Source of the DNA: Solobacterium sp.
GTDB lineage: Bacteria > Bacillota_I > Bacilli_A > Erysipelotrichales > Erysipelotrichaceae
Length of the DNA stretch: 10,453 nucleotides
Direction: 5' to 3'
Assembly: GCA_016280695.1 (NCBI GenBank)
Contig: JAEEHG010000138.1
Span: 1 to 10,453 of the forward strand
Position 1 is the first letter of the stretch; the number at the start of each line of letters is the position of its first letter. The notes below the pieces were generated by a model. That model saw only the letters and a program-made list of their open reading frames with translations, was not told where the DNA came from and searched no databases. Below, one piece after another: positions 1 to 4,122 of this stretch. A program made the translations under genes and the position numbers.

Positions 1-1542
1 CTTGTTGCGCATGTAGTTCAGAACATCCTTGGCGAACTGCTGAGCTTCCTTGTGGGTCAGGTCAACACCCAGCCACTTGGCGTTCAGGGCGGCTTCGTTC
101 ATGCCGACCAGGCCGATGGTTGAGAAGTGATTGTCGAAGGTGCCCAGATATCTCTTGGTATAAGGATACAGGCCGTTGTTCATTAACTTGGTGATGACGT
201 CTCTCTTGATCTTCAGGCTGCGGGCGGCCAGATCCATGACCTTGGTCAGACGGTTGAAGAAGTCTTCCCTGTTTTCAGCCAGATAAGCCAGACGGGGCAT
301 GTTGATGGTGACAACACCGACGGAACCGGTTGATTCGCCGGAGCCGAACATACCGCCGGCTTTCTTGCGCAGTTCTCTTAAGTCCAGACGCAGACGGCAG
401 CACATGCTTCTGACATCGGAAGGTTCCATGTCACTGTTGACATAGTTTGAGAAATAAGGAGTACCGTACTTGGCGGTCATTTCGAATAACAGCTTGTTGT
501 TTTCGGTCTCTGACCAGTCGAAGTCCTTGGTAATTGAATAGGTCGGAATCGGATACTGGAAACCGCGGCCGTTGGCATCGCCTTCGATCATGATTTCGAT
601 GAAGGCCTTATTGACCATGTCCATTTCAGCCTTGCAGTCCTTGTAGCAGAAGTCCATTTCCTTGCCGCCGACGATGCAGGGCAGTTCAGCCAGGTCATTG
701 GGAACGGTCCAGTCAAGAGTGACGTTGGTAAACGGTGCCTGAGTGCCCCATCTTGAAGGAGTGTTGACGCCGTAGATGAAGCTCTGGATGCACTGCTTGA
801 CTTCCTTGAATGACAGGTTGTCAGCCTTGACGAAAGGTGCCAGGTAGGTGTCGAAGCTGGAGAAAGCCTGAGCGCCGGCCCATTCGTTCTGCATGATGCC
901 GAGGAAGTTGACCATCTGGTTGCACAGGGTGGACAGATGCTTGGCCGGAGCCGAAGTGATCTTGCCCTGGATGCCGCCGAGGCCTTCCTGGATCAGCTGC
1001 TTGAGCGACCAGCCGGCACAGTAGCCGGTCAGCATGCTCAGGTCATGAATATGGATATCCGCGTTGCGGTGGGCATCGGCGATTTCCTTGTCATAGACTT
1101 CGCTCAGCCAGTAGTTGGCTGTGATCGCACCGCTGTTGGACAGGATCAGGCCGCCGACCGAATAGGTAACGGTGGAGTTTTCCTTGACCCGCCAGTCCAG
1201 CGCTTTCAGGTAGCTGTCAACGAGTTTCTTGTAGTCCAGTGTTGTTGTCGCAATATTACGGATATTTTCCCGCTGCTTGCGGTACAGAATGTAAGCCTTG
1301 GCCACATCCGCATAGCCGGCGTTGCTGAGCACCTTTTCCACGGAGTCCTGAATGTCTTCAACGGTGATCCGGCCGTCCTTGATTTTCGGCTCGAAATCAC
1401 TCGTGACCTGCAGGGCGATCATATCCAGAACTGTCTGGTTATACTGCCTCTCACAGGCATCGAATGCCTTCTGTACGGCATTGCTGATTTTGCGGACATC
1501 AAACTCCGCCAGTGACTCATCTCTTTTTACTACCTTGTACAT
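1..1542 (-). CDS. nrdD: Anaerobic (class III) ribonucleoside-triphosphate reductase, C-terminus cut by window edge
   Basis: Reduces ribonucleoside triphosphates to deoxyribonucleotides without oxygen, using a glycyl radical made by the activase encoded just upstream. The start codon is complement(1540-1542) and 514 codons remain open to base 1, so the frame leaves the window. Residues 1-95 look like an ATP-cone allosteric domain (MYKVVKRDES start). The catalytic barrel follows, with the landmarks ADIHIHDL at 161-168, GYCAGWS at 173-179, RSMCCRLRL at 378-386 and STGSVGVVTINMPRL at 404-418. By family analogy Cys382 (the MxCR position) should be the thiyl-radical cysteine and Cys175 the second active-site cysteine. 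The C-terminal zinc cysteines and glycyl-radical loop lie outside the window. An AGGAAGGG site at 1550-1557, 7 nt before the ATG, lies inside the end of the activase gene, so translation is probably coupled. Family identity is very secure; the residue assignments are by analogy. Confidence 0.97.
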   Translation of the reverse strand, partial: MYKVVKRDESLAEFDVRKISNAVQKAFDACERQYNQTVLDMIALQVTSDFEPKIKDGRITVEDIQDSVEKVLSNAGYADVAKAYILYRKQRENIRNIATTTLDYKKLVDSYLKALDWRVKENSTVTYSVGGLILSNSGAITANYWLSEVYDKEIADAHRNADIHIHDLSMLTGYCAGWSLKQLIQEGLGGIQGKITSAPAKHLSTLCNQMVNFLGIMQNEWAGAQAFSSFDTYLAPFVKADNLSFKEVKQCIQSFIYGVNTPSRWGTQAPFTNVTLDWTVPNDLAELPCIVGGKEMDFCYKDCKAEMDMVNKAFIEIMIEGDANGRGFQYPIPTYSITKDFDWSETENNKLLFEMTAKYGTPYFSNYVNSDMEPSDVRSMCCRLRLDLRELRKKAGGMFGSGESTGSVGVVTINMPRLAYLAENREDFFNRLTKVMDLAARSLKIKRDVITKLMNNGLYPYTKRYLGTFDNHFSTIGLVGMNEAALNAKWLGVDLTHKEAQQFAKDVLNYMRNK

Positions 1543-1546
1543 ATAA

Positions 1547-2698
1547 TTACCCTTCCTTTAATCCCCTGAATTCCGTGCCGGGCAGAATTTCCGCCACGGC
1601 CTGCCGCAGTTCCCTCATTTCTGCGGCACTGTATGCCGTCCAGCCGGGCTGGATGACATTTTCACTTTCTGTATACTGCTGCAGATAATAGTGCTTCGCC
1701 CCTTTGAGCCAGGCAGCGATATCGAGCAGATCCTGCCGGTCATGCAGTTCCCTCACCACCGTGGTGCGGAACTCGTAGTCCGGCGCCTGCGCCATGATGA
1801 TCTTCCGGGATTCCTCGATCAGTTCCGGCGCAAAGTTTTCGCGGTTGATGCCCGCGGTCCGGGCATACTTATCCGGCGTATTCTTGATATCCATGGCCAC
1901 GTAGTCGATCAGCCCGGTATCCAGCAGATGCCGCAGTTTGTCCGGATAGTAGCCGTTGGTATCCAGCTTGACGAGGTAGCCCATCTTCTTGATGTCCCGG
2001 ATGAAGTCCTCCAGGCCTTCCTGCAGCAGGGGTTCCCCGCCGCTGATGCACACCCCGTCCAGCAGTCCTTTCCGTTTTTCCAGATACTCCATGACTTCCT
2101 CCGGATCGAAGAAATCGTAGTTTTCCGGAATGAAGACCAGGTCCTTGTTGTGACAGAACGGACATTTGAAGTTACAGCCGGAAGTGAAGATGGTCGCGGC
2201 GACCTTGCCGGGATAGTCCAGCAGGGTCATCTTCTGCATCCCGCCGATCCGTACCCCGGAGTAACGCGGCTCCGGCACCAGATACATGCGGCTGTTGACA
2301 CAGACTCTCTCAAGCATCTCCTCGAACAGGTCGATGTCCACATCCTGGCCCAGCCGGCGCCGCAGTTCATTGCGGTATTCATACAGCGGCGGCATGATTT
2401 CCGTTGCCTTCTGTGTCGTGTACAGGCGTTTGACCCGGCGGTCGTTTTCATCCGTCTGGGTCTGCACATAACCCTGTTCAATCAGCTTCTGGATGCTCTT
2501 GGTCGTCGTTCCCTTATCCACTTCGCCGATCCGGGATACTTCCTGCATGGAGATGCCCTCATTCTCATTGATGAAGAACAGGAACATCAGCTGGCCGCTG
2601 CCGATATCGTATTGGGCCAGCGCTTTGTCAAAGTATTTCTGCATGTTCCTGTATAGAACAGACAGATTGATCAGGAAGTTGTTCTGCTCTGCTGACAT
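1547..2698 (-). CDS. nrdG: MarR-family regulator domain fused to NrdG-like radical-SAM activase
   Basis: Predicted glycyl-radical activase for the adjacent NrdD, carrying an N-terminal transcription-factor domain. Positions count from the first possible Met (base 2704). Residues about 8-145 read as a MarR winged helix: recognition helix around DKGTTTKSIQKLIEQGYV (63-80), a charged wing DENDRRVKR (85-93), then a long helix ending at Cys135, the only Cys in this half. Residues about 149-385 are a radical-SAM domain. Its cluster motif CxxxCxxC is Cys177, Cys181 and Cys184, and SGGEP at 221-225 is the SAM-binding element. The TLLDYPGK opening (160-167) resembles the NrdG-type activases that begin before the cluster with a short beta segment. 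GGAGG at complement(2707-2711) lies 8 nt from the second Met and only 2 nt from the first, so I prefer base 2698 (383 residues); the longer form would start at 2704. It ends 4 nt before nrdD, an order reversed from the common nrdD-nrdG. Both halves are clearly readable in one uninterrupted frame. Confidence 0.93.
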   Translation of the reverse strand: MSAEQNNFLINLSVLYRNMQKYFDKALAQYDIGSGQLMFLFFINENEGISMQEVSRIGEVDKGTTTKSIQKLIEQGYVQTQTDENDRRVKRLYTTQKATEIMPPLYEYRNELRRRLGQDVDIDLFEEMLERVCVNSRMYLVPEPRYSGVRIGGMQKMTLLDYPGKVAATIFTSGCNFKCPFCHNKDLVFIPENYDFFDPEEVMEYLEKRKGLLDGVCISGGEPLLQEGLEDFIRDIKKMGYLVKLDTNGYYPDKLRHLLDTGLIDYVAMDIKNTPDKYARTAGINRENFAPELIEESRKIIMAQAPDYEFRTTVVRELHDRQDLLDIAAWLKGAKHYYLQQYTESENVIQPGWTAYSAAEMRELRQAVAEILPGTEFRGLKEG

Positions 2699-2706
2699 TG
2701 GCATTT

Positions 2707-2733: not shown

Positions 2734-2757
2734 AAAATAGTTGGATTTCCTACTTTT
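2734..2757 (-). promoter_or_regulatory. Candidate promoter -10 and MarR-type operator of the marR-nrdG-nrdD operon
   Basis: On the minus strand TATTTT (2739-2734) is a plausible but weak -10. A 22-bp imperfect palindrome at 2736-2757 abuts and partly covers it; its core is AGTTGG-ATTT-CCTACT on the plus strand (2739-2754). Eight of the eleven symmetric pairs match; the mismatches are at 2738/2755, 2742/2751 and the central pair. Size and symmetry fit a MarR-dimer site, and the first protein of the operon has a MarR domain, so autoregulation is the natural inference. No good -35 is visible. Confidence 0.4.
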
Positions 2758-2816
2758 GCTTCCATGGAGAATGATAACGCCGAAATCCGGTTCTGAAAAG
2801 ACTAAATTTCAAGTTA

Positions 2817-3015: not shown

Positions 3016-4122
3016 ATGTCTGAACTGCAGTTTGTCTTTGTGCACGGACTGTCCGGCTGGGGCAGTTACGATGATAATTACCGGAAAATGCCCTACTGGG
3101 GCATGCGGGGCGGTGACCTGATGGTTTACCTGCGCAGCCGGGGATATGCCTGTTACGCGGCTTCCGTGGCCCCGGCGGGAAGTGCCTGGGACCGGGCCTG
3201 TGAACTGTATGCCCAGCTGGCAGGCACCCGTACCGATTACGGCAGGGCGCACAGCACAGCTTTTCACCATGAACGCTTCGGGCGTGACTTTACCGGCCGG
3301 CCGCTGCTGCCGGAATGGCATGACAATACCCGGCTGGTACTGCTTGGCCATTCGTTCGGCGGGGCTACGGTCCGGCTGTTTTCGGCCCTGATGGCAGAAG
3401 GCAGCAAAGAAGAAAGAACAGCCACGGATCCGGTTGACCTGTGCCCGCTGTTTGCCGGCGGCATGGCCGCGCGCATCCACACCATTGTGACCCTGGCAGC
3501 CCCGATGAACGGCACCACTGCCTATGACATGTTCGAAGACCCGGCATTTGATCCCGCTGCCGTTAAAGTTCCCTGGTGGAGCCGATATCTGGCCGGGCTG
3601 ATGGCCCGCGGCACAAAACCCGCCCTTGACGGCCGGGACAGGCGCGATTACGCCGCCTATGACATGCATATCGATAACGCCATGGCCATGAATGCCCGGA
3701 TCCCGACCCTCGCGGACACGTACTATTATTCCGTGCCGTGCTGTGCCACCCGGCGCCGGGCTGACGGCACCTGCGTGCCGCTGCGGGAAATGGAGCCGCT
3801 GTTTGTCATGCGCTCGACACAGATCGGCGCCTATGCCGGTACAACTGCCGGCGGTGTACGCATTGATGAAGCCTGGCGCGACAATGACGGCCTGGTCAAC
3901 ACAGTCTCCGCCGCGGTCCCGTCCGGGGCTCCTTCCGTGCCCCTGGACCGGGATGATATCAGGCCCGGGATCTGGAATGTCTTCCCGGTTCTCGCCGCCG
4001 ACCATATGTACCTGCAGGGCGGCCTGATGCGCCGGCATGACATCCGCGCCTTCTATCTCGAACTTCTTGAGATGATCGCGGGAACTGAAAAGAACCCCCT
4101 CCGGAGTTCTTCTGATAATTAA
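3016..4122 (+). CDS. Family I.5-type triacylglycerol lipase, no signal peptide
   Basis: Alpha/beta hydrolase expected to cleave acyl esters. The N-terminus (FVFVHGLSGWG, 6-16) matches the start of mature Geobacillus-type lipases, as do DRACELYAQLAG (59-70) and HERFGR (85-90). The nucleophile elbow is GHSFGG, Ser113. The acid is probably Asp291 in DNDGLVNTVS and the base His330 in ADHMYLQGG. Asp59, His79, His85 and Asp216 keep the order and early spacing of the structural zinc ligands known in this family (Asp61, His81, His87, Asp238). At 368 residues it is slightly shorter than mature homologues; the deficit falls after Ser113, where the lid region lies. Homologues are secreted, but there is no signal peptide, and an in-frame TAG at 2959-2961 with no start codon after it before 3016 excludes a hidden one. 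A cytoplasmic role or non-classical export is inferred. Its stop codon overlaps that of the convergent gene. Confidence 0.87.
   Translation: MSELQFVFVHGLSGWGSYDDNYRKMPYWGMRGGDLMVYLRSRGYACYAASVAPAGSAWDRACELYAQLAGTRTDYGRAHSTAFHHERFGRDFTGRPLLPEWHDNTRLVLLGHSFGGATVRLFSALMAEGSKEERTATDPVDLCPLFAGGMAARIHTIVTLAAPMNGTTAYDMFEDPAFDPAAVKVPWWSRYLAGLMARGTKPALDGRDRRDYAAYDMHIDNAMAMNARIPTLADTYYYSVPCCATRRRADGTCVPLREMEPLFVMRSTQIGAYAGTTAGGVRIDEAWRDNDGLVNTVSAAVPSGAPSVPLDRDDIRPGIWNVFPVLAADHMYLQGGLMRRHDIRAFYLELLEMIAGTEKNPLRSSSDN

Follow-up and report, generated by a model that had tools for sequence, protein, structure and literature searches.

The question raised by this locus is why the activase of a class III ribonucleotide reductase (RNR) should share one chain with a transcription factor domain. 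The window, meaning the whole stretch of 10,453 nucleotides that was analyzed, is a contig of a Solobacterium MAG that is 77% complete and consists of 291 contigs. An earlier note on this DNA had described a MarR domain and a NrdG activase encoded in a single frame, and had proposed that the product is an activase that also represses its own operon. The genes and domains concerned are as follows.

1547..2704, minus strand: MarR-NrdG2 fusion gene, 385 amino acids, identified from its open reading frame, domain matches and full-length homologues
2270..2704, minus strand: MarR winged-helix domain, residues 1-145 (Pfam, alignment and predicted structure), with the recognition helix at residues 64-76, the wing at 80-96 and helices at 98-118 and 124-141
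1550..2257, minus strand: NrdG2 radical-SAM activase domain, approximately residues 150-385, with CxxxCxxC at 177-184
1..1542, minus strand: nrdD, class III ribonucleotide reductase, 514 amino acids visible, its 3' end cut by the contig end

The single frame is as the earlier note described it, and both domains of the window fusion are complete in profile searches, each scoring over its curated cut-off; for TIGR02495 (NrdG2) the score is 226.1 bits, compared with a cut-off of 131.15. A Pfam scan at 1e-3 yields MarR, winged-helix and radical-SAM/Fe-S families and no ATP-cone, so the fusion does not have the Zn-ribbon plus ATP-cone composition of NrdR. In an AlphaFold model with a mean pLDDT of 92 and a pTM of 0.66, in which the relative orientation of the domains is uncertain, the N-terminal half is confidently predicted to adopt the winged-helix fold that the earlier note had supposed, complete with terminal (dimer) helices. 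Structure comparison likens this half to MarR proteins, and the best match of the C-terminal half, among the matches listed, is pyruvate formate-lyase activase.

In an alignment of 67 distinct fusions, the recognition-helix residues D63, K64 and G65 and the wing residues D88 and R90 are invariant (67/67), and T66, T68 and K69 are present in 64, 63 and 66 sequences, respectively. The cluster cysteines C177, C181 and C184 of the radical-SAM CxxxCxxC motif are found in all 67. Judged by sequence, both domains appear intact, the DNA-binding half is under constraint, and the fused activase is a putative installer of the glycyl radical on NrdD. Cys135, which had been suggested as a redox contact, occurs in just 20 of the 67 fusions, and a redox switch at this residue was rejected.

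The fusion is widespread in its order. The best 120 of 7999 scored protein candidates all have MarR and radical-SAM Pfam domains. In a sample of the order, 128 of 244 genomes match the fusion at 1e-30, and by hand assignment from the residue ranges of the matches, 121 of these are fused, including one split across two contigs and one truncated at a contig end, whereas 7 have NrdG2 only. Many of the genomes are MAGs and, because they are related, genome counts are not independent. The set of 67 distinct fusions omits L034, L134 and L136, whose starts are over-extended, and some other loci, such as L150 and L152. Carriers are mostly gut bacteria. The incomplete and fragmented state of the window's MAG could invite the view that an assembly or sequencing artefact has joined two genes, but full-length fusions occur in many separate genomes, including that of the Dielma fastidiosa type strain. 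Confinement to one genome, which the earlier note had named as grounds for dropping the idea, is contradicted by this recurrence beside nrdD; the artefact was rejected, and its probability is negligible.

In a sample of the class, two genomes of another family (f21) have full fusions (L145 and L146). In a tree of the activase domain these nest within the fused group, which suggests that they were acquired by transfer. Across that tree (85 chosen rows, 38 of them fused), the fused label requires two changes, one of them forced by well-supported branches, a pattern consistent with one origin. No full-length fusion was found outside these families in a sample of the phylum searched at 1e-50. An unfused MarR gene beside NrdG2 was considered as a precursor in Clostridia and was unconvincing, with a distant MarR at 2 of 69 loci in the fetched stretches.

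The arrangement with nrdD is also conserved. In the window, nrdD starts 4 bp past the stop codon of the fusion, and its product has an ATP-cone at residues 3-92, according to Pfam. Conservation beside nrdD, proposed earlier as a check on the fusion, is seen in 61 of the 67 distinct fusions, window included, where nrdD follows in the same orientation at an offset of -23 to +32 bp; five fusions are without an adjacent nrdD, and one is at a contig edge. The partner NrdD proteins have 35-92% identity to that of the window. In two genomes (G013 and G231; loci L422 and L423) the operon is extended, and comprises the fusion, nrdD, a thioredoxin-reductase-like gene and nrdD2, a second class III nrdD of E. 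coli type (PRK09263).

Fusions without a neighboring nrdD (L034, L168, L169 and L170) retain both domains and have the site described below upstream. Some nrdD-less fusions adjoin genes that we labeled hslO-like and dus-like from reading their sequences, and the same genes precede fusion-nrdD in a relative (L176). Some genomes with an nrdD-less fusion contain an unfused nrdG2-nrdD pair elsewhere (G011 and G017: L172 and L173), and in the activase tree the unfused NrdG2 copy from such genomes groups with a Butyrivibrio sequence. At 3016-4122 of the window, a gene for a lipase-like protein (Pfam Lip_C) is oriented divergently to this operon of fusion and nrdD.

If the fusion acts on its own operon, a binding site is to be sought upstream of it. 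The region before the fusion gene in the window includes the following elements.

2738..2755, minus strand: operator-like inverted repeat AAGTAGGAAATCCAACTA, 23.0 bits on the motif matrix, starting 51 bp before the ATG
2771..2776, minus strand: predicted -10 box TATCAT, which places the operator centre at about +18 from the predicted start
2794..2799, minus strand: predicted -35 box TTTTCA, with a 17-bp spacer

The window site alone is not significant, as 76 of 200 shuffles hold an equally good match, and the case for the site rests on comparison across genomes. A search for palindromic motifs in 66 upstream regions recovered TAGTTGRANNTYCAACTA with a log-likelihood of 529, compared with 27, 28 and 31 for three mononucleotide-shuffled sets searched with fewer starts. 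A stricter repeat, on a subset of 42 upstream regions chosen so that the proteins share less than 70% identity, gave 322 versus 36-41 for three dinucleotide-shuffled sets searched with equal effort. Sites of at least 12 bits are present in 57 of the 66 fusion upstream regions. Nine fusion promoters score below 12 bits, one of which (L025) is explained by the chosen start codon. The two f21 fusions carry sites of 24.3 and 23.9 bits. At the unfused NrdG2 loci (L044-L112), a 12-bit site was found anywhere in only 1 of 69.

The centre of the site is within -40 to +40 of the predicted start in 52 of the 57 cases. Centres cluster in two groups, +8 to +20 and -28/-29, and are upstream of -40 in one case. 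Placement of the second group is partly circular, since the motif is itself similar to a -35 box; predicted promoters barely outscore shuffled ones (9.0 versus 7.9). Placement over the -35 box or just past the start would block transcription. The possibility that the site belongs to the divergent upstream gene was set aside because the site stays close to the fusion start (at about 20-70 bp across the 57 scoring cases), whereas the remaining upstream DNA looks unrelated, as judged by eye. Co-variation of site position 7 with MarR residue 67 was seen, is confounded by kinship and was not used. The proposal that the protein represses its own operon has gained strong comparative support, because its promoter carries an operator-like site that is conserved.

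The site is not confined to the fusion genes. Exact sites occur in at least 71 of the 244 genomes of the order; among the matches listed, none is in the window's own genome. Among 50 fetched exact sites that are away from fusions, those from fusion-bearing genomes precede an RNR gene in 22 of 27 cases versus 1 of 23 for fusion-less genomes; the others are in or near non-RNR genes. The RNR genes with sites are nrdD2 and, in one genome (G012), class I nrdA. When a matrix learned from fusion promoters only was applied to the 300 bp before nrdD2, for 120 of 121 such genes (that of G116 is without its start), sites of at least 14 bits were found in 51 of 63 fusion-bearing genomes versus 4 of 57 others (Fisher 1.9e-17). 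Random stretches of 325 bp, with those containing an exact site left out, reach this threshold in 0.07% of cases. Counted by genus, from lists copied by hand, nrdD2 has the site in 16 of 24 genera with the fusion versus 0 of 19 without it (p 3e-6). Because the site also precedes other RNR genes, it looks like the mark of an RNR regulon, beyond autoregulation.

In 12 of the 63 fusion-bearing genomes, the 300 bp before nrdD2 hold no site of 14 bits or more. In two of these (G013 and G231), nrdD2 is part of the operon of the fusion itself, and in G139 the site is about 420 bp upstream. Four others (G169, G229, G081 and G192) score 11.4-13.1, the match in G229 being a Crp-type palindrome, and for G111, G053, G179, G075 and G228 no site within 300 bp of nrdD2 appeared. 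The site before nrdD2 is kept in four fusion-less genomes (G022, G246, G103 and G198), whose genera also hold fusion-bearing genomes. One of these, G022 (L249), is 97% complete and has a perfect site before nrdD2, and no fusion was found in it; its site is either a relict or the fusion is on a missing contig. Three genomes possess a further nrdG2-nrdD pair, which is unfused; here sites of 14.4, 17.8 and 23.3 bits are located between the two genes, 47 to approximately 230 bp before nrdD, whose identity was confirmed.

Class I genes bear the site less often. In fusion-bearing genomes, 2 of 25 class I genes have a site of at least 14 bits and 5 of 25 one of at least 11 bits, versus 0 of 14 at 11 bits in others. 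This sample comprises 39 of 76 genes: the first 30 loci, plus nine that were taken from fusion-bearing genomes and scanned over a longer stretch (542-801 bp). The case of G012 was viewed separately. A stricter pattern, TAGTTGNANNTNCAACTA, was searched with zero mismatches throughout 16 fusion-bearing and 10 fusion-less genomes that had been chosen for this purpose. The fusion-bearing set yielded 17 sites, of which RNR promoters account for 16 and the remaining one adjoins another marR match; the fusion-less set yielded a single site, not at an RNR gene. With one mismatch, specificity is lost, with 34 and 22 sites in the same two sets of genomes, compared with 25 and 29 for a control with the pattern reversed. 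Two genomes of genus g3 in which no fusion was found (G037 and G093) have nine and five one-mismatch sites, above other fusion-less genomes, and as far as examined these are not near RNR promoters.

The earlier note took NrdR to be the usual regulator of RNR genes, a form of control that was not found in this class. No NrdR match above the cut-off was found in 60 relatives or in 247 genomes of the class, and 9 of 14 control genomes were positive. Weak matches below the cut-off in 17 of the 60 relatives were taken for the ATP-cones of RNRs. In the available portion of a 2014 review, only Rickettsia, Helicobacter and Desulfovibrio are named as being without NrdR (PMC4009431). Because NrdR is also not found where the fusion is absent, the fusion did not alone cause the loss of NrdR. 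Several fusion-less genera have a Crp/Fnr-like gene divergent to the E. coli-type nrdD2, with a different palindrome, GTTGCANNTGCAAC, between the two (L263, L271, L273, L283, L285 and L286; L263 and L286 were checked with Pfam). This gene and its palindrome may be a second substitute for NrdR, distinct from the fusion. A similar arrangement occurs in the fusion-bearing genome G229 (L270).

The reading we favor, with a probability of roughly 0.77, is that the fusion is an activase that represses its own operon and controls an RNR regulon in a class where no NrdR was found, the state of the activase being the hypothesized sensor. From the sites and the conserved DNA contacts we infer binding and repression, and from the MarR fold that the protein acts as a dimer. 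Bound to TAGTTGRANNTYCAACTA, either across the -35 box or shortly after the transcription start, a fusion dimer would repress nrdG-nrdD and the second class III nrdD at its separate locus, as well as class I nrdA in some genomes, taking on the job of NrdR in this class. Perhaps the activase half is the sensor, such that free fusion dimers hold the genes down and engagement with NrdD, or loading of the cluster or SAM, alters DNA binding in one direction or the other. If engagement with NrdD changes DNA binding, the supply of active reductase would feed back on its own genes. Because NrdD has its own ATP-cone, the nucleotide signal that is sensed directly by NrdR in other bacteria could travel by such a route. 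A more specific version, which we offer tentatively, makes a radical-SAM enzyme the RNR transcription factor of the order, with the activase reading the competence of NrdD (the state of its ATP-cone, its glycyl radical and the cluster) and signaling this to the promoter. Nucleotide sensing would then have shifted from the ATP-cone of NrdR to that of NrdD, by way of the fusion.

Alternatively, the fusion might be a true RNR repressor whose signal is a ligand or a redox change in the MarR domain, such that fusion merely fixes the ratio of repressor to activase. MarR proteins commonly bind their own ligands, and the closest standalone relatives found are adjacent to genes for MATE-like pumps, a setting in which a MarR that binds a ligand would be usual. 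Helix 1, which is highly conserved (S15, L17, R19 and K23 in 66 of 67 fusions, D26 in 67), could be a pocket. However, no ligand is indicated, and both the order of the domains and the operon with nrdD persist among partners as diverged as those above, which exceeds what dosage would need; we judge this alternative somewhat unlikely. Some MarR proteins activate transcription, and so might the fusion, but the site is mostly centered at about +8 to +20 or at the partly circular -28/-29, and only once in 57 cases upstream of -40, which makes activation improbable.

It is also conceivable that the MarR half has a structural role or docks NrdD, and that the site is read by another MarR protein. The nearest standalone MarR proteins found, in G075 and G139 (L414 1477-1905 and L415 1495-1914), share the DKGTT recognition helix and are encoded beside MATE-like transporters, and their own genes are preceded by AGTTG-N6-CAACT-like sites. 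This implies that the outer half-site goes with the DKGTT helix type, a pairing that appears to tie the site to the fused MarR domain, and it also means that other MarR proteins could compete for it. Such proteins and the site kept in four fusion-less genomes favor a separate reader, whereas the DNA-contact residues that are invariant in all 67 fusions, the tracking of the fusion by the site across genera (16/24 versus 0/19) and the sites of the transferred f21 fusions speak against one. Moreover, among the four fusion-less genomes, no MarR resembling the fused one was found at 1e-4 in G022, which has no MarR match of any kind at that threshold, or in G198, and only distant ones with 28% identity were found in G246 and G103. 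A separate reader is, by these results, very improbable, and we retain the self-repressing activase as the preferred reading.

DNA synthesis is limited by the supply of RNR in almost all cells, and the fusion is a candidate replacement for NrdR in about half of the genomes sampled from one order (121/244), with a defined site, a small regulon and a hypothesis of a built-in sensor. It makes testable the question of whether an activating enzyme can report its own engagement to its own promoter. In literature searches that covered titles and abstract openings and few subscription journals, no MarR-NrdG fusion and no MarR control of RNR genes in this group was found, and the putative target site, the palindrome TAGTTGRANNTYCAACTA, is a new result.

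Several known systems resemble the fusion in part. With NrdG2 (TIGR02495) it shares the full domain, the cluster motif and the activase-nrdD gene order of many unfused loci in Clostridia, but it differs by the MarR domain in front. Its likeness to NrdR, a Zn-ribbon plus ATP-cone repressor of RNR genes according to the available portions of several papers (PMC9110341, PMC12176259, PMC12051234, PMC4009431), is one of function and not of membership: a shared box precedes nrdG-nrdD, the second nrdD and some nrdA genes, whereas the domains are unrelated and the box is different. MarR repressors with the DKGTT helix beside MATE-like pumps have the same fold, recognition helix and AGTTG half-site, but the putative targets of the fusion are RNR genes and its MarR domain is fused to an enzyme. 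A further parallel may lie in trigger enzymes, that is, enzymes that double as transcription factors, such as PutA, BirA and NadR. To our knowledge, no radical-SAM enzyme is among them. As in these proteins, a catalytic and a DNA-binding domain are combined in one chain and, by analogy, the fusion would regulate its own pathway.
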